Of a DNA stretch of 64,000 bases, positions 1,540 to 8,751 are shown piece by piece. The notes under the pieces are model-generated. The model ran no database searches. It saw nothing but the letters and a program-made list of their open reading frames with translations, and was not told the origin of the DNA. The position numbers and the translations under genes were made by a program. The stretch comes from Propionivibrio soli (GTDB taxonomy: Bacteria > Pseudomonadota > Gammaproteobacteria > Burkholderiales > Rhodocyclaceae), in the NCBI RefSeq assembly GCF_025770765.1, contig NZ_JANZKY010000014.1:1-64000 (forward strand), read 5' to 3'. The number at the start of each line of letters is the position of its first letter. The stretch's first letter is position 1.

Positions 1540-1596
1540 TGGCGGAAGCGGTGAGATTCGAACTCACGAAAGGTTGCCCTTTGCCGGTTTTCAAGA
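1540..1596 (-). pseudogene. 3' part of the disrupted host tRNA-Ser(UGA) gene (left attachment site)
   Basis: On the minus strand this reads from the anticodon loop (CTTGAAA) through ACCGG, the variable arm, the T arm (GTGAG-TTCGAAT-CTCAC) and CGCTTCC to an encoded GCCA end. It differs from the intact tRNA-Ser at 6808-6864 at only two of 57 positions. Both changes fit the detached 5' part at 6916-6954 instead: its ACCGG pairs with the CCGGT there, and its CGCTTCC with the GGAAGCG there. It is therefore the original host 3' end and not a copy of the intact gene. It cannot make a tRNA alone. Confidence 0.9.
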
Positions 1597-1651
1597 ACTC
1601 GTAGGCTGATTTTACGCCACTGTGCGCCTCTGGCGTAAGTTTTACGAGTTC
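1595..1651. repeat. Nested inverted repeat at the left end of the element
   Basis: The outer arms GAACTCGTA (1595-1603) and TACGAGTTC (1643-1651) are perfect complements. The inner arms TTACGCCA (1612-1619) and TGGCGTAA (1631-1638) are also perfect. Together they could form one long interrupted hairpin. The outer arm abuts the attachment core and the integrase gene starts 106 bp further on, so an attachment-site or integrase-binding role is likely. There is no T-run to suggest a terminator. Confidence 0.6.
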
Positions 1652-1757
1652 CATGAAATCAGTGAGTTGTGCCGGATTTACATTTTGTGGGTATCTTGCC
1701 ATAGCTTTACCTGGACTGCTTACGGTCTGCGTACCGAACGTCTAGGAGAAGGAAAAA

Positions 1758-2589
1758 ATGGCAAAGCTCACGAAGACCCACATCGACAAAATCACTCTCC
1801 CCCGCAAGCGGGTATGACCTGCATTGGGACGAGCAAGACCGAGGGTTTGGCTTACGTGTTACCAAGGACGGGAAGCGCACCTACATAGTGCAAGGGCGGG
1901 TCAATGGCAAGGAGGCACGCATCGCAATCGGGGCGCATGGTGTATTCACTGTCGACCAAGCCCGCGAGGTTGCACGTGACCACCTGCGGAGCATGAGGCA
2001 GGGCATTGACCCCCGCACCGTTGCCAAGGAGCGCGCAGCCGAGACGGTAACGTTGCGCGACGTAGCAGATGTCTAAAAGCGCGACCGCCCGCTCAAGGAG
2101 AGCAGCAAGGGCGAGATCGAGCGCCATGCGACCACAACCTTTGAGGCATGGCTCAAGAAGCCCATGACGAGCATCACCCGCGAGGCGGTCACAAGGCGGT
2201 TCAACGAGATTAAGAATCACGGTCTGCGCGGCGCCGGACCCGCACCAGCTCAAGCCAATCAGGGTTTCAGCGTGCTTCGCGCCCTGTTCAACTACGCGAT
2301 TCGGGAATACCGCAGGCCGGAGGGTACGGCGATCATCAAGGACAACCCCGTTGAGGTACTTCACAAGAAACGGGCTCCGGTCAAGGCCAAGACGACCCGC
2401 ATACCGGACGGCACGGTTGGCGCGGTGTGGTCAGCACTCCAGCAGTGGCGCGAGGTCGCCTACAACCGCGACACCCTAGCCAGCATTGACCTTGTGATGT
2501 TGTTAATGACGCAGCAATTACAAGATGCGTCTCCGAGAACCGGCAACCGATTTGTCATGCAGCCAAGGAACGGCAAATACACTATTTGA
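1758..2589 (+). pseudogene. Tyrosine-type site-specific integrase, frameshifted and truncated
   Basis: The gene starts at ATG 1758 with AGGAGAAGGA just upstream and begins 'MAKLTKTHIDKITLP', the usual opening of phage/P4-type integrases with a DUF4102-like arm-binding domain. An indel in the run of five C at about 1799-1803 shifts the frame. The reading continues from 1801 as the expected domain ('DRGFGLRVTKDGKRTYIVQG', 'GAHGVFTVDQAREVARDHL'). A TAA at 2074-2076 then interrupts that frame, after which a core-binding segment follows ('FSVLRALFNYAIREYRRPEG'). The frame loses likeness around 2510 and ends at 2589, so the catalytic R-H-R-Y domain is missing. The element cannot excise by itself. 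Confidence 0.85.
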
Positions 2590-2780
2590 CGGACAGCGCC
2601 CATAAGCGATTGGAACTGTTCCACTTCGTCGCCGAGGGGCAGCAGCGCGTAAGCCTATTGCACGCAACCCGCAGAATTCGGCACCTGTTCAGGCACGTCA
2701 AAAAGACGATGAAGACCACTACCGCTAGTAGGTTTGATGGAATCCACCACTGGATGCGGTGCTTACCGGTAATTTGCCAT

Positions 2781-3209
2781 ATGCTGCCTTCATCACAACA
2801 CACCAGCCGAGAAGAGGCCCGCTTTGCCAACTGGCAACGCCCGGAACCAGTAAGCATTCCGCGACCGACTGAAAGACGAGGGCGGCGCTCGCGTCGAATT
2901 CACCCTTAACAAAGACCTTCTCCAAGCAGTGAAGCAGGTCAGACAGAGTCTTGGGGCGAGATGTACCCGCCAAGACGGATTAACCCACTTTCTCAACCAA
3001 GGAGCATCGGCCGTGAAGACCAATCCAAGCAGAAACCGGCAGGGCTGACCGCCAGCGAAACCGCCGAGCTTGCTCAGTTCAAGACCAAGCTCATCAACGA
3101 CCATCTGGACGCCCGCGAAGTGCAGGCGAACGGCGGGCCCGCTGGTGTGGTCCACAAGGCCCGCATCAACGCCATGCTGGACGCGAATAACCAGCATCGC
3201 CAGAAGTAA
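2781..3209 (+). pseudogene. Remnant of one or two small element genes with frameshifts
   Basis: Three plausible coding segments lie in a row but in shifting frames. A segment from ATG 2781 ('SREEARFANWQRPEPV') runs to about 2852. A second runs 2854-3048 ('ARVEFTLNKDLLQAVKQVRQ', then 'GLTHFLNQGAS'). The third continues from about 3045 to 3209 ('LTASETAELAQFKTKLINDH'). A strong AAGGAG at 2998-3003 precedes a GTG at 3013, so the last part may have been a separate gene starting there and broken by one indel near 3045. No family was recognised. Amino-acid composition, not homology, supports coding, so the exact gene structure is uncertain. Confidence 0.4.
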
Positions 3210-3238
3210 CCCGATTCACCAACCACAAGGAGCAATCC

Positions 3239-3787
3239 ATGAGCACCCCTGAAATGAACAAGCTGCGCGAAACCCTCACCAGCGTTATCCAGAAGCACAC
3301 CGAGGCCAACGGCGGATATGACCTACTGCATCCGGAATGGCACGAAGCTGCTGCCAAGGGCGACGACGCGAAAGCCGACAACCTGATGGAAATCGAACTT
3401 GAGCGCACGCGCCGCCTGATGCAGCGTCTGGAGCTTCGCCGCGCCAGCCTTGAGCAGGGCATCGGCAGCGCCGAAGAAGTGGCCCGTGCCGCTGCTGCCG
3501 CGAAGCTCAAGGCTACCTGTGACGCTGTGCTGGCTCGCGCTACTGCCCGCCTTGCTGACCTTGAACCGCTGGCCGCTTCGGTTGCCAAGCTGGTTGATGA
3601 ACTGGAAGCGGATTTTGCCGATTGGAAGGAAGCTCGCTATTACGCCACGCAGGCAGGTGCAGCGCCGGAAGGGTTGGGCAGTGTGGAGAACGACCGCCGC
3701 GTTAGCCGCCTCGTTGAATCGCTCGGCGTATCCCGTCTCCGCGTCGGTGGAGTCGCCAAAGAGATGAACCGCATCAGCATCATGTAA
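3239..3787 (+). CDS. Hypothetical coiled-coil protein of the integrative element
   Basis: This 182-residue protein is intact, with a clear AAGGAG site eight bases before ATG 3239. It is mostly helical and charged, with long Ala/Leu/Glu stretches ('EVARAAAAAKLKATCDAVLA', 'LAASVAKLVDELEADFADWK') that predict a coiled coil over residues ~45-130. There are no membrane segments, signal peptide or known catalytic motif. It lies between broken small genes and a broken helix-turn-helix gene in the same direction, so it probably belongs to the element's original phage-like operon. I do not recognise the family and propose no function. Confidence 0.65.
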   Translation: MSTPEMNKLRETLTSVIQKHTEANGGYDLLHPEWHEAAAKGDDAKADNLMEIELERTRRLMQRLELRRASLEQGIGSAEEVARAAAAAKLKATCDAVLARATARLADLEPLAASVAKLVDELEADFADWKEARYYATQAGAAPEGLGSVENDRRVSRLVESLGVSRLRVGGVAKEMNRISIM

Positions 3788-3857
3788 CTGAACAGAACGG
3801 CGTAACCTGCGGCCGCGCAACGCTCCCGCATAAGTGCCTGTCTCGTTGGAACTACCA

Positions 3858-4610
3858 ATGACACGAACAGGCAAAGATTCCCGAAACATCACATCAGCAC
3901 GCGCCGTCCGCGATGCACAACGACGGGCTGAAATGGTCTCCCTCCGCCTTGAGGGTTTGACGCTCGAACAAATCGGCGAACGTATGGGCGTAGGCAAGCC
4001 CACGCGTGTCGCGTGTCATCAGCAATGCACTTGCCGCGCATACCCGCGAACCTGCCGAAGAACTGCTGGCCCTTGATCTAGGGCGCTGTGACGCTCTGCT
4101 GTCTGAGGCCATGCAGACCGACAAGGCCTTCCACCCGCTTGTGAGCGCGGGCCGTGTGGTAAGCGCCCCCATGCTGGACAGTAACGGCCAGTCAGTACGC
4201 AACCCCGAAACCGGCGACGTACTGACGCGGGTACTGGAGGACAAAGTGCCGAAGCTGGCGGCGATTGCCACAGCGGTTCGCGTCATGGAACGACGCGCCA
4301 AGCTCCTTGGCCTAGATGCAGCAACCAAGCTCCAGCAGGAAGTGACCATCACCGAGCAGGAACCCGCCTACGACCTCTGCAAGCTCGACATGAATGAAAT
4401 GCACCTCTACGGCTACCTGCTGGAGAAGATGCACAACCCCGACAGTCCAGACCGCGCCGACCGCCCAAGCTGCGCGACGAAGTGCAGGCCAAGCTCACGC
4501 CCACCGAGATTGGCATCCTGCAAGCGATTTTCAAGAAGTTGGACGTGCAGTACCTCGCCGCTGACACGGTGAGCGGGCTGTATGCCCCGCCCGCACTGCA
4601 AGCCCCATAA
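3858..4610 (+). pseudogene. Helix-turn-helix protein of phage type, broken by two frameshifts
   Basis: From ATG 3858 the product starts with a clear helix-turn-helix ('LEGLTLEQIGERMGVGKPT'). One extra base near 4005 then shifts the frame; the continuation 'VSRVISNALAAHTREPAEEL' is read from 4006. A second shift, one missing C in the run at 4464-4466, moves the ending to another frame ('KLRDEVQAKLTPTEIGILQA'), which stops at 4608-4610. Repaired, it would be about 250 residues. An N-terminal homeodomain-like helix-turn-helix followed by a helical domain recalls phage terminase small subunits and phage regulators, but I cannot decide between them. The next gene starts 12 bp downstream. Confidence 0.7.
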
Positions 4611-4622
4611 GGAGAACGAACA

Positions 4623-5312
4623 ATGCTCACGAAGCACACCGACCACAAGGCCCGCTCCCATTTCTTATTCGACGACGAACACAGGGCGCCAGCGGCACGC
4701 TATACGATCATCTTCGAGGGGCGGGAGGATGTGGTTATCGCTCAGCCCTTCGAGTCAGCCGCCGCTACTTGGCAGCGGGTGCTGGCGCGACTTGCTGAAA
4801 ACCGCACCATCATTCGGCACGGCGCTTGGCGAGGGCGCGAGTTTCACTACGTCACCATTTATTCAGGCATCGAACCGACCGAAACGCAGCGCAAGGAACA
4901 CATGCGCGACGGGATCAATGCCTGCCTGTATCAGATGGCAGACCCGGCGAGGAGCAAGGACGCCGAGTCCCGCGTGCAGGCGCTTATCGCATTGAACGAC
5001 CTGCATGGGCTGAACCAGCCGCGAACGGTGTATGTGGTCGCCCTGCCCACGCTGGAACAGATCGAAGCCGAGATTGCCCCCGCGAGGTTCAACAATGACA
5101 GAGGGGCGCGATATGTTGAGCCGGCCTATTGGCCGCAGTGCGACGATAGGCGGGAGCCTGTACTTGACCCGAATTACGACCCGCCCCGCGTCATTCGGTA
5201 TGTCGGCTGGCGTCCCTGCTCCTGCTGCGGCAAGAAGTTCTTTAGTCGTGACGTAGCGAGCATCCGCCTGTGTGGCCCGTGCAAGGACGGCACGCGCCGA
5301 GAAAGCTGGTAG
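4623..5312 (+). CDS. Hypothetical protein with C-terminal zinc-ribbon-like cysteines
   Basis: This is an intact 229-residue protein with a good AAGGAG site before ATG 4623. Its C-terminal region holds a CxxC pair ('CSCCGKKFF') and a second pair ('RLCGPC') about 20 residues later, the spacing of a small zinc ribbon. This suggests nucleic-acid or protein binding. The N-terminal ~180 residues show no motif I recognise. It follows the broken helix-turn-helix gene by 12 bp and is probably the last gene of the same operon. It is among the few undamaged genes of the element, so it may still be expressed. Confidence 0.65.
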   Translation: MLTKHTDHKARSHFLFDDEHRAPAARYTIIFEGREDVVIAQPFESAAATWQRVLARLAENRTIIRHGAWRGREFHYVTIYSGIEPTETQRKEHMRDGINACLYQMADPARSKDAESRVQALIALNDLHGLNQPRTVYVVALPTLEQIEAEIAPARFNNDRGARYVEPAYWPQCDDRREPVLDPNYDPPRVIRYVGWRPCSCCGKKFFSRDVASIRLCGPCKDGTRRESW

Positions 5313-5684
5313 TCCCCAACCAACCCCACTGTCAGACAGAGGCGAGGCATAGCAGTGAGTTCCTCGATAACCTAACCTCCGCAGCTTGCGGGGTGATTCC
5401 TCAGAAACCTGACGCAGCCAAGCCGCCCTAGTCGCATGACTTCGACGGGCTTGTTTTTGCCATGACAAATTATCGGCAGCAATCGGGCTAATCGTCGGCG
5501 TGTGCCGCTTTGAACATCATCAAGGCAAGCGTATTGAGGATTAGTCGAACGTCGCCTATACGAACTGACGATTGTGGGCGGCGTAGCAGGCAGCACAGGC
5601 GCTGATCGGGCATAGGGTGCTAAGGGTATTGGCGCGAGTACTGCGCGGCCTGTAGCCGCGCTATCTGCAGTAATTTGGAAGCAG
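5313..5684. other. Non-coding stretch inside the element
   Basis: I found no convincing gene in these 372 bases. Around 5431-5468 an interrupted hairpin (AAGCC...GTCG...CGAC...GGGCTT) is followed by GTTTTTG and could be a weak terminator for the preceding operon. The following sequence shifts to the AT-richer composition of the acyltransferase gene, so a join between two acquired pieces may lie here. Confidence 0.4.
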
Positions 5685-6635
5685 TTACGGTGTTTTCGCA
5701 GCTAGTTTGCGGTATAACTGGCGTGCGATTTTATGTGAGGGCTGCTCAATCAATCTATAAAATATATAGCAACCAAGCAGGATGAAAGGCACGGATATTA
5801 GAATGAAAGGCACGGATATTATTTTGCTTAAGGTTAATAATTTGAACACAATTATCCAGGCGAGAATATGAAACAAATAGATGGAGTAGCTCCATTTTCC
5901 GATTCGATCAAGCCAGTGTTCGTGTTTCGCGGCAGCGATTTCTGAGCTAATCCAAGCGGCACACAAGATGGCGAATAAGTTTCCCGTCAAATAGAAACCT
6001 ACGGCGGTGTTCATTGTGGCCCAATAGCAAAAGCTTGCAATAATGGCGACCGAGAATCTAAGTGGAACAACAGGACCCGAGTGCTTACCGCGCTCCGCCA
6101 GAGCACAACCAATAAGCCAACTGGGGAGACCAATTATCCAGTTCATACTCCAGCCATAGATGGCGGCGCTTCCGTACTGATCAGACCCCTGCCAAAGCGC
6201 GAATCCGTAAGCCACAACAAAAGCTACTGCCCACTGTAATGAGAATGGAAGCCATCTGCGATGCAGAAAAAGAAAGACGGGGTAAAGAGCGTAGTACCAG
6301 AGTTCGCAAACGATACTCCAAAGAATATAGCCGTCCACTGGATTAAAGTCAGTCAGGCCGAGTTGATATGACAGTGGCCAAGCTATAGCAGCGGGGATGG
6401 ATATTCGAATAAAGCGAGCCAACCAAAAGGCACGACAAGGCAATTCTGATTTGACATACGGGGCGTGAATGCAAAATCCAGAAATAACAAAAAATGCAAC
6501 TACAGCTGGGTAACCCGTAAAAATGTATTTTGCAAGCCCTGGCAATGAGGGACCCACAACATGTGCTAGGAGGACGCTTAGGGCCGCAATCGCGCGAAGT
6601 CTATCGATCCCAATAACGTAATTTGCGCTGCTCAT
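5685..6635 (-). CDS. Acyltransferase family 3 (OafA/NolX-like) membrane protein
   Basis: This 316-residue polytopic membrane protein starts with the family's signature 'IDRLRAIAALSVLLAHV', where the histidine is the probable acyl-transfer residue. About nine or ten hydrophobic segments follow, and it ends with a basic tail. Relatives O-acetylate lipopolysaccharide, peptidoglycan or nodulation factors. I chose ATG 6635 over an upstream ATG at 6764 because the extra 43 residues are hydrophilic and unlike the family. The gene is clearly AT-richer than its neighbours, faces against the other element genes and lies near the element's right end, so it looks like acquired cargo. A 21-bp tandem duplication near its 3' end gives a repeated 'SVPFILI' segment. 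Confidence 0.85.
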   Translation of the reverse strand: MSSANYVIGIDRLRAIAALSVLLAHVVGPSLPGLAKYIFTGYPAVVAFFVISGFCIHAPYVKSELPCRAFWLARFIRISIPAAIAWPLSYQLGLTDFNPVDGYILWSIVCELWYYALYPVFLFLHRRWLPFSLQWAVAFVVAYGFALWQGSDQYGSAAIYGWSMNWIIGLPSWLIGCALAERGKHSGPVVPLRFSVAIIASFCYWATMNTAVGFYLTGNLFAILCAAWISSEIAAAKHEHWLDRIGKWSYSIYLFHILAWIIVFKLLTLSKIISVPFILISVPFILLGCYIFYRLIEQPSHKIARQLYRKLAAKTP

Positions 6636-6807
6636 TGTGTTATCAGTGCCTAGCCGAATCGACCCTATAAGACTTACTATCTGCTTACCGCTCTGTTTTG
6701 TTCCCGGCCCTGATTGGCACCGGGTTTGCCCTTGCATGTGGTCAGTTGCAGGGCTTTTCTTCACTTGCTTTGCACCGCGAAGAACTGCGCTAAGCCCTTG
6801 TATTTAT

Positions 6808-6895
6808 TGGCGGAGGCGGTGAGATTCGAACTCACGAAAGGTTGCCCTTTGCTGGTTTTCAAGACCAGTGCAATCGACCACTCTGCCACACCTCC
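6808..6895 (-). tRNA. serT: tRNA-Ser(UGA), intact, carried by the element
   Basis: This is an 88-nt serine tRNA with encoded CCA. Its acceptor stem is GGAGGTG/CGCCTCC, its anticodon arm CTGGT-CTTGAAA-ACCAG (anticodon TGA, complement at 6859-6861), with a long variable arm and the T arm GTGAG-TTCGAAT-CTCAC. The acceptor and anticodon stem pairs differ from those of the disrupted host copy (GGAAGCG/CGCTTCC and CCGGT/ACCGG), each set internally consistent. This gene is therefore a different serine tRNA, inside the element's boundaries, and not the host gene restored. The symbol follows E. coli usage for the UGA isoacceptor. Confidence 0.95.
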
Positions 6896-6915
6896 GACTC
6901 GCTACTTACAACAAA

Positions 6916-6954
6916 TTTCAAGACCGGTGCAATCGACCACTCTGCCACGCTTCC
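6916..6954 (-). pseudogene. 5' part of the disrupted host tRNA-Ser(UGA) gene (right attachment site)
   Basis: On the minus strand it runs from GGAAGCG through the D arm and CCGGT to the anticodon loop CTTGAAA, and then stops matching. It is 39 nt long; with the 49 nt from the other side of the anticodon loop at 1540-1588 the total is 88 nt, exactly the length of the intact tRNA. It lies 20 bp upstream of the intact tRNA-Ser in the direction of transcription, so the former host promoter probably still transcribes both. Confidence 0.88.
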
Positions 6955-6989
6955 GACGTTCCCGAGGCGACCCTCGGCAGTGGGCGCGT

Positions 6990-6995
6990 ATCATA
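6990..6995 (-). promoter_or_regulatory. Likely -10 element of the original tRNA-Ser promoter
   Basis: The minus strand has a consensus-like TATGAT 35 bp upstream of the GGAAGCG start of the disrupted tRNA. I see no good -35 hexamer at the usual distance, so the call rests on the -10 box and position. Transcripts from here would cross the tRNA fragment and reach the intact tRNA-Ser. Confidence 0.4.
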
Positions 6996-7094
6996 CCACG
7001 GGGTTACAAATCGTTACCTCCAGCCTTGCAACTTGAGGCATGCTTGCTTAGTCTTACGTAAGCAGTAAAACCGTTCCTTTAGGAGGATGAATAG

Positions 7095-7787
7095 ATGCAA
7101 CCTCAGTATCAGATGACAGGTCAGGCCACTCGCGAGGTGGCGCAGCAGCAGAACAAGGTCTTGCGCAATACCTACATGTTGCTCGCACTGTCCATGGTGC
7201 CGACGGTCATTGGCGCGTTGCTCGGCGTTCAGCTCGGGTTCTCGCTGTTTGCCGGCAGCCCGCTGATGTCGTTCGTAGTCTTCCTGGCAATTGCGTTCGG
7301 CTTCATGTGGGGTATCGAGCGGACGAAGGACAGCGCGATGGGCGTCGTCCTGTTGCTTGGCTTCACGTTCTTCATGGGGCTCATGCTTTCGCGCATCTTG
7401 CAGGTAGCGCTCGGTTTCTCGAACGGCGCTTCGCTGATCGCGACGGCGGCAGGCGGCACGGGCGCGATCTTCTTCACGCTGGCCGGTATCGCGACCGTGA
7501 CGAAGCGGGATTTCAGCTCGCTGGGCAAGTTCCTGTTTGTCGGCGTCGTGGTGATTCTGCTGGCAGCGCTGGCCAACATCTTCTTCCAGATTCCGGCCCT
7601 TGCGCTGACGATCTCGGCGGCCGCCGTGCTGATCTTCTCGCTGTACATCCTGTACGACATCAGTCGTATCGTGCATGGCGGTGAGACGAACTACATCACG
7701 GCGACGCTGGCGGTCTACCTGGACGTCTACAACATCTTCGTGAGCCTGCTCAACCTGCTGATGGCCTTCAGCGGTAATCGCGACTGA
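7095..7787 (+). CDS. yccA: Bax inhibitor-1/YccA family inner-membrane protein
   Basis: This 230-residue protein has seven hydrophobic segments and the family's C-terminal 'LYDISRIVHGGETNYITATL' block followed by 'LYLDVYNIF'-like residues, typical of bacterial TMBIM/YccA proteins. In E. coli YccA is a substrate and modulator of the FtsH protease; ftsH lies elsewhere in this window at 57153. The start has an AGGAGGATG site directly upstream. The gene stands alone just outside the integrative element and is followed by a strong bidirectional terminator. The subfamily name (YccA versus YbhL) is an inference. Confidence 0.92.
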   Translation: MQPQYQMTGQATREVAQQQNKVLRNTYMLLALSMVPTVIGALLGVQLGFSLFAGSPLMSFVVFLAIAFGFMWGIERTKDSAMGVVLLLGFTFFMGLMLSRILQVALGFSNGASLIATAAGGTGAIFFTLAGIATVTKRDFSSLGKFLFVGVVVILLAALANIFFQIPALALTISAAAVLIFSLYILYDISRIVHGGETNYITATLAVYLDVYNIFVSLLNLLMAFSGNRD

Positions 7788-7872: not shown

Positions 7873-8751
7873 CTATTGCGCGAGGAACTCGGGGCCTTGC
7901 ATCATCCTTGACCCGCGCCTTCCCGCCGTCTCCGAAAAGGTGACTTCGTGACGCGGCAGGTCGTCGAGGGTCAAAGGGGACGCCAGTGCTCCAAGCCCGG
8001 TCAATTCGTAGCCACGTTCCACCCAACCTGCGAGCAACCGGGCAAAGACGCTCGGGAACTTCATTCCTTCGAGTTCGGCACGCAGGGTGAAGACGTGGTC
8101 CCCAGGAATTGCACTCGATAGCTGCAGTATCCGATCGGCCGCCTGGTCAGCCGAGAAGGAAGGCTCCAGCGCCAAGATCTCGTCGATGGTCGGCAGCGTC
8201 GTCGGAATCTGCGGGCATAGGACGATCTCCCCGTCGATGACCGGAATGAAGGGGTGGCTGCCGTGGCAATCGCTTGCGTACGCGAAGCCGAACCGCTGCG
8301 TCAGGCGCAACGCGTGACGGTTGGTCCGCCATCCCGGGGCGGCGTACGCCGTAGGAAGCGATCCGAAGAGTTCGGCGTATCGCTTGCAGCCTTCACCGAA
8401 TTGCCACCCGACCCAACTGTTGTCGGCACGTTCGATGTTGCGTTCCCAAAGGGCGCGGTTCCAGGCGTGGAGCCCCGTCTCAAAGCCGGCCTCCGCCACT
8501 TTGCGTAAAGTCTCGGCGCAGCGCGTACCAATGTCGGGTGACGGAAAGAGAACGCCATAGAGGCGCGTGCTGCGATCATAGTATTGCGCTAATGAATACC
8601 CCCGCGCTTCCTTGCCGCTGGAGTCCTTGCCGAGCGAAAAGAAGAAGGTTCCCGGCGTTCCGTGTTTCGACAATTGCTCGGTTAGGGCGGGGACGCCGAC
8701 AAGCGTGCCGCGATAAGTGTCGACGTCGATCTTGAGCGCAATGTGTTTCAT
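7873..8751 (-). CDS. arnD: 4-deoxy-4-formamido-L-arabinose-phosphoundecaprenol deformylase
   Basis: This 292-residue polysaccharide-deacetylase (NodB-fold) protein resembles ArnD over its length: 'LKIDVDTYRGTLVGVP' at the N-terminus, 'GTPGTFFFSLGKDSSGKEAR', 'AGFETGLHAWN' and 'FAYASDCHG'. ArnD removes the formyl group from undecaprenyl-linked formamido-arabinose, a step in adding aminoarabinose to lipid A that lowers binding of cationic peptides. Other arn genes are not present here, so the gene is separated from its pathway within this window, and a related deacetylase role cannot be excluded. Asp10/Asp12 and the histidines of the metal site are visible. Confidence 0.85.
   Translation of the reverse strand: MKHIALKIDVDTYRGTLVGVPALTEQLSKHGTPGTFFFSLGKDSSGKEARGYSLAQYYDRSTRLYGVLFPSPDIGTRCAETLRKVAEAGFETGLHAWNRALWERNIERADNSWVGWQFGEGCKRYAELFGSLPTAYAAPGWRTNRHALRLTQRFGFAYASDCHGSHPFIPVIDGEIVLCPQIPTTLPTIDEILALEPSFSADQAADRILQLSSAIPGDHVFTLRAELEGMKFPSVFARLLAGWVERGYELTGLGALASPLTLDDLPRHEVTFSETAGRRGSRMMQGPEFLAQ

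Follow-up and report, generated by a model that had tools for sequence, protein, structure and literature searches.

A whole tRNA-Ser(UGA) gene inside a small element that splits the host's own gene in Propionivibrio soli

What becomes of a bacterium whose gene for a needed transfer RNA (tRNA) has been cut in two, in the middle of the anticodon loop, by a piece of DNA that mends it at neither end? The question is posed by a 64,000-nt stretch of Propionivibrio soli (contig NZ_JANZKY010000014.1, positions 1 to 64,000; hereafter the window), in which an element of 5.3 kb, measured core to core, lies between the two halves of a tRNA-Ser(UGA) gene and holds a complete tRNA-Ser(UGA) gene of its own. 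An earlier note, made from the letters of the window alone, had held that the element breaks the host gene, that it brings in a whole isoacceptor 20 bp behind the stub, and that its loss could be lethal. The first two claims have stood, and the third is taken up below. We consider it highly probable, from the sequences compared here, that a tyrosine-integrase element, now degenerate, split the single tRNA-Ser(UGA) gene of its host, carried in a whole substitute, and has since become locked in place.

The broken gene and its stand-in

The host gene, on the minus strand, is broken in the anticodon loop into a 39-nt 5′ stub at 6916..6954, on the side of the left attachment site (attL), and a 3′ part at 1540..1596, on the side of the right one (attR). 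The two share an 8-bp common core, TCTTGAAA, found at 6916..6923 (minus strand) on the attL side and again at 1589-1596 on the attR side. Joined, stub and 3′ part make an 88-nt gene that is identical at 88/88 positions to the intact tRNA-Ser(UGA) genes of G012, G022, G006, and G013 (loci L011-L014), of which they are the 5′ and 3′ halves, and that lies 2, 4, and 6 nt from the intact genes of G023, G018, and G009. The uninterrupted gene that had been expected in relatives without the element therefore exists, letter for letter, in four genomes of the same genus. ARAGORN calls neither junction fragment as a tRNA, and the 3′ part is preceded by sequence that is not tRNA; in other words, the target is rebuilt neither at attL nor at attR.

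The single tRNA that ARAGORN reports anywhere in the 64-kb window is the carried one, at 6808..6895 on the minus strand, with anticodon TGA and fully paired stems. Between it and the core lie 20 bp of element sequence (6896..6915, minus strand), and similar sequence occurs in two of the loci described below, L187 and L209. ARAGORN and our own reading place both fragments and the intact gene exactly where the earlier note had placed them. The carried gene is identical to the joined host gene at 83/88 positions, and the differences (gene positions 4, 6, 29, 43, and 81) amount to two compensated base pairs and one change of the G-C to G-U type. It is 5 nt from the gene of G009, the acceptor strand being GGAGGTG in both, and its source was likely inside the genus.

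Is there another copy on which the cell might live? Covariance model RF00005 gives 45 tRNA matches in the genome, and among the ten that are longer than 80 nt (the size class of Ser, Leu, and Tyr tRNAs) ARAGORN reads serine anticodons CGA, GCT, and GGA elsewhere and TGA in the window only. A pattern for the 3′ half of tRNA-Ser(UGA) has two matches in the genome, which are the displaced fragment and the complete gene. A search of the whole draft genome for other Ser-UGA genes, such as the earlier note had proposed, thus found no second complete one by RF00005, by ARAGORN, or by the 3′-half pattern.

The integrase of the window element survives as remains at 1798..2589 on the plus strand, with a profile match from 1798 to 2520 that contains one TAA and a catalytic half that is not recognised. 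One piece matches PF13356, the arm-binding part of the enzyme, and a further piece matches phrog_1; the two are 69% and 61% identical to an intact enzyme in a sister element (L293, in genome G428). There, a stub is followed by a complete tRNA-Ser(UGA) gene 17 bp behind the core, closely like the gene of its own host, and 15.8 kb further on by the 3′ fragment, which adjoins an intact tyrosine integrase of 414 amino acids with both PF00589 and PF13356. A search for related elements, also proposed in the earlier note, has in this way turned up the same anatomy around an intact relative of the broken integrase. The integrases that adjoin the 3′ fragments of L294-L297 and L305 are 51-62% identical to that of L293.

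These observations suggest a sequence of events. A tyrosine integrase would have inserted the element into the single host tRNA-Ser(UGA) gene through the 8-bp core in the anticodon loop, and because no 3′ half came along with the element's attachment site, the host tRNA would have been destroyed at both ends. The cell would then live on the complete tRNA-Ser(UGA) gene that lies 20 bp behind the core and points in the same direction; most likely, a single transcript from the promoter of the split gene spans the stub and the new tRNA, and the stub would be trimmed off as a leader during tRNA maturation. As long as the integrase was active, precise removal of the element would have restored the original host gene, leaving the cell with one functional copy whether or not the element was present. 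With the integrase broken, as it is here, the foreign gene would be locked in.

How might the carried gene be expressed? A separate promoter would hardly fit into the 20 bp that lie between the core and the tRNA, and the position and strand of the complete gene in other loci of this kind (downstream and on the same strand in all 51 of those listed that have one) argue for transcription from the host side. The minimum free energy fold of a transcript of stub plus tRNA retains the cloverleaf of the carried gene.

Recurrence in the genus and beyond

We scanned genome and viral contigs for the 5′ half of tRNA-Ser(UGA) without its own stem behind it. The pattern matched in at least 115 stretches of genome contigs and in 29 of viral contigs (at least 146 matches overall; the genome-contig scan yields no frequencies). 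Twelve of the matches listed are intact genes, which leaves 134 stubs; a complete tRNA-Ser(UGA) gene lies on the same strand, at most 400 bp downstream of the stub, in 34 of them and further downstream in 17, and among listed stubs with a complete gene in the locus it is never upstream (0) and never on the other strand (0). Stub and whole tRNA-Ser(UGA) gene occur together in at least 38 loci, including the window and three other genomes of its genus (G002, G014, and G015). That is, 4 of 28 genomes of the genus have a stub beside a complete, different tRNA-Ser(UGA) gene; a recognisable gene for this tRNA is present in 19 of the 28, and the nine without one include several that are incomplete.

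The junction type and spacing of the window recur in L134, L187, and L209, where 49-52 bp separate the TGGC of the stub from the start of the tRNA, and for this reason we do not regard the arrangement as an accident. Nor do errors of binning explain it, for L133, L153, L177, and L196 (4 of the 38 listed loci) carry strain names and are not metagenome-assembled genomes. Stub, whole tRNA, and 3′ fragment are found on one contig in 7 of 27 genomes (G428, G439, G436, G441, G440, G429, and G451) and together again on a 41-kb viral contig from IMG/VR (G460). Taxon names, which cover L119-L198, place such loci in Sphingobium, Novosphingobium, Rhodoferax, Sterolibacterium, Sulfurisoma, Arenimonas, and Clostridia. 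Isolates are among the carriers, such as Sphingobium sp. Leaf26 (L295) and Sulfurisoma sediminicola BSN1 (L298/L299).

Why carry a whole gene, when half of one would do to mend the target? In all 38 listed loci, the carried tRNA has fully paired acceptor and anticodon stems (ARAGORN, by which these tRNAs were selected, favours well-paired ones), and when the host stub is paired instead with the carried 3′ half, at least one mismatch appears in 34 of the 38. Eight elements with GTTGATT just behind the core adjoin seven different stub acceptor sequences, of which one is perhaps a decayed copy of another. On this anatomy, carriage of the whole gene would free the element from the acceptor stem of its host.

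Other patterns and loci deserve mention in their own right. A strict form of the stub pattern matched in 0 of 399 genomes of the order, although its last letter excluded the window too, and no other genome of the genus was among those drawn. A loose anticodon-loop pattern matched 45 times in the own genome and has no diagnostic value on its own, and a 17-base attL pattern, whose listed matches in viral contigs looked like chance, was not used. In Pelagibacteraceae (L127, L169, L171, L174, L179, L197, and L198), the complete tRNA-Ser(UGA) gene lies 1.3-5.3 kb downstream of the stub, and in L127 two successive stubs precede one complete gene; these are possibly small elements that supply a 5′ half and have stacked in tandem. 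In Mesorhizobium and Bradyrhizobium (L191, L135, L146, L167, and L185), the stubs end in CTTGAAA, and the next letters are mostly ttc or tac. These loci contain no tRNA-Ser(UGA), and for L191 and L135 one complete gene lies elsewhere in the genome; another attachment type, that of large integrative elements, is perhaps at work there. Within the genus, a stub-like tRNA-Ser 5′ half with an altered loop lies near 2071 of L060 (G003), on a contig where no complete Ser-TGA gene was noted and ARAGORN was not applied, and may perhaps be a fifth case. G440 has two stub-plus-tRNA sites (L297 and L307), and the tRNA carried at the second has a changed T stem.

Competing readings

Several results weigh against the history that we propose. 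Complete tRNA-Ser(UGA) genes are missing from the fetched locus in 83 of the 134 listed stubs, so that many stubs must have arisen in other ways or have partners beyond its bounds, and in L119, L175, and L189 (3 of the 38 listed loci) the stub matches the 5′ half of its complete neighbour letter for letter, which may reflect a duplication. The integrase profile matched 1 of 300 genomes drawn from the order, the element's own, and none of the other 299 (two viral contigs matched as well). A scan of 6780-7100 for consensus promoters found no promoter-like site at all and so speaks neither for nor against a host promoter, and the fold energy of stub plus tRNA is like that of shuffled sequences (z 0.13). 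Finally, the genome is a draft in 36 contigs, albeit rated 99.8% complete.

Could the intact gene simply be host DNA, one of two native tRNA-Ser genes in tandem of which an ordinary element broke the other? Its 83/88 identity to the host gene and the GGAGGTG acceptor strand that it has in common with G009 speak for this reading. A recognisable gene is present in 19 of the 28 genomes of the genus, however, and none of these has a tandem pair; the intact gene, moreover, sits between the two halves, and L293 and L294-L297 show this order again, along with a related integrase. We rejected the native pair on these grounds and give it very little credence. The earlier note had named a tandem pair in a relative and a second complete gene in this genome as the finds that would undo its account, and neither has come to light in those 19 genomes or in the draft. 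Still harder to believe is an island of reversed orientation, a type reportedly described by Zhao and Williams in 2002, which would supply a 5′ half and leave the stub as its displaced fragment. It would indeed leave a 5′ stub, and it may explain other loci of the scan, such as L191, whose genome has its complete gene elsewhere, but in the window no 5′ half adjoins the 3′ part, the carried gene runs out into element sequence, and the free 3′ fragment refutes it there.

Two further proposals accept a carried gene and differ as to what it is for. According to the addiction proposal, loss of the element would kill the cell because the sole tRNA-Ser(UGA) gene goes with it. No complete copy other than the carried gene was in fact found in the genome, and this speaks for the proposal; the lethal loss is not borne out, since precise excision would rebuild a host gene that matches its relatives letter for letter, and with the integrase broken here ordinary loss is not expected. 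The only lethal loss would be that of the tRNA-bearing part without rejoining, and we find addiction improbable. Alternatively, the carried tRNA may have been selected to lose the integrase target, its anticodon stem, where the integrase would bind, being altered such that it cannot itself be split. Its stem differs from that of the stub in the window, in 8/8 loci of family B, and in 11/11 of family C; in L134 and L209, both of the window's own family, the stems are identical. Native stems vary too: the stems of two natives drawn at random from the order agree 16% of the time (a baseline of 107 stems, compiled by hand, one per genome, with G000, chance matches, and second matches left out). 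Beside the 12 CCGGT stubs, one carried tRNA keeps the stem where 35% would be expected (P 0.045, or 0.09 with one shared lineage collapsed), and the stub pattern itself had fixed the last three stem bases. We regard this selection as possible but doubtful. Because its integrase is broken, we read the window case not as an active addiction module but as a gene replacement that has become locked in.

Known systems and remaining features

The principle is not new. Lysogeny that depends on a phage-borne tRNA has been published, and tested in mycobacteriophages, by Guerrero-Bustamante and Hatfull in 2024 (PMC10865867), and excerpts of that paper describe the same essentials: a tyrosine integrase (a remnant in the window, intact in L293), an attB site in a host tRNA gene, a short core (some 8-17 bp in their table and 8 bp here), attL and attR both devoid of a functional tRNA, a cognate tRNA carried by the element, and a host tRNA that is otherwise single copy (here, in a draft genome). 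In those excerpts, the cases are phages of Actinobacteria that use tRNA-Lys, Ile2, or Leu, with no occurrence of "tRNA-Ser", whereas ours is a 5.3-kb remnant with a broken integrase and tRNA-Ser(UGA). The tRNA of phage Fionnbharth is described there as having its own promoter and overlapping a phage gene, unlike the window's tRNA, which lies 20 bp behind the core and is probably transcribed from the promoter of the host. A prophage of Lactobacillus johnsonii, Lj965, cited in the same excerpts, is likewise reported to rebuild no tRNA and to carry a cognate one, but it is a phage of another phylum.

Also published are prophages of Sinorhizobium meliloti like Mesorhizobium phage vB_MloP_Lo5R7ANS, which insert midway into a tRNA gene, thereby inactivating it, and which, like the window element, contain a functionally similar tRNA (PMC11476347, in excerpt). 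There, the gene is tRNA-Leu(UAG), the elements are annotated intact prophages in two strains, and carried and host tRNAs are 80.6% alike, as against 83/88 positions here. Canonical tRNA islands (Islander; PMC4383910, in excerpt) also have a tyrosine integrase in a tRNA gene and a displaced 3′ fragment, but they restore their target at one junction, whereas here neither junction has a complete tRNA. The half-restoring plan appears to have a representative close to our own integrases. The integrase of viral contig L429 is 70% identical to that of L293. The contig has a complete tRNA-Ser(UGA) gene at one end and, on the integrase side, a 3′ fragment that repeats the 3′ half of that gene, and it looks like the usual plan; since only 8 nt of contig precede the tRNA, a stub is possible. 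In the literature, as excerpted, we found no tRNA-Ser(UGA) element of this kind, which is not proof that none is in print.

What is new here is the use of tRNA-Ser(UGA), the small size of the elements, the placement of the tRNA right behind the promoter side of the host gene, and a fossil, locked-in copy. We lean towards a broader view, namely that replacement of tRNA-Ser(UGA) by a whole gene behind the host promoter is a common strategy in several families of elements, in alpha-, beta-, and gammaproteobacteria as well as Clostridia, that the whole gene lets an element enter hosts with differing acceptor stems, and that dead elements fix the swap, with repeated foreign replacement within one genus. 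On that view, half-restoring elements could not enter such hosts. What had been proven in mycobacteriophages is here carried over to a serine tRNA and to small elements outside Actinobacteria. In the window, the swap would be permanent, an essential gene of translation having been displaced by a foreign copy; by the same token, a single intact, annotated tRNA gene may be a horizontally acquired replacement. How prevalent is the strategy outside actinobacteriophages, as PMC10865867 (in excerpt) asks? The signature of a stub with a whole gene downstream makes it countable.

On the promoter side of the tRNA, the host flank contains a gene at 7095..7787 (plus strand) that we take to be yccA-like, of the Bax inhibitor-1 type. 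Of 12 same-genus loci of 3.4-16.5 kb, 9 have a homologue next to the tRNA or stub (78-85% identity); the LysR-type gene of the other flank was found in 0 of the 12, so that flank has changed. The earlier note had looked to cysB and yccA as the neighbours in relatives; the yccA-like neighbour was borne out, and the LysR-type one (its cysB) was not.

The cargo of the element shows weak matches to phage families and, by Pfam and PHROG, no clear structural gene. Two overlapping open reading frames (ORFs) on the plus strand, 3834-4076 and 4006-4572 (together 3834..4572), both match phrog_645 and are probably one broken gene; the second is 63% identical over 106 amino acids to an ORF of L293. The next ORF (4623..5312, plus strand), with a cysteine-rich C-terminal end, is common to L295, an element of family C, where its counterpart at 8078-8563 is 27% identical over 168 aligned columns, best at the C-terminal end. 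An acyltransferase of 359 amino acids follows on the minus strand (5685..6764; PF01757, E value 1.3e-22; phrog_3333, O-acetyltransferase). Ten ORFs of L293 have no structural domain in Pfam, and its segment 8163-12672 encodes an HNH nuclease resembling type IV restriction enzymes and two genes that match PADLOC Hp1 and Hp2, possibly an anti-phage defence cargo.

A search with the integrase as a single protein found matches in 3 of 28 genomes of the genus, two of them distant (36% and 33% identity). One locus, L044 (G009 C3:418000-433000), has a different, distant integrase (36%) and no tRNA in its 15 kb, and over 2 kb it is 74% identical in nucleotides to the interior of the window element: the same cargo at another integration site.

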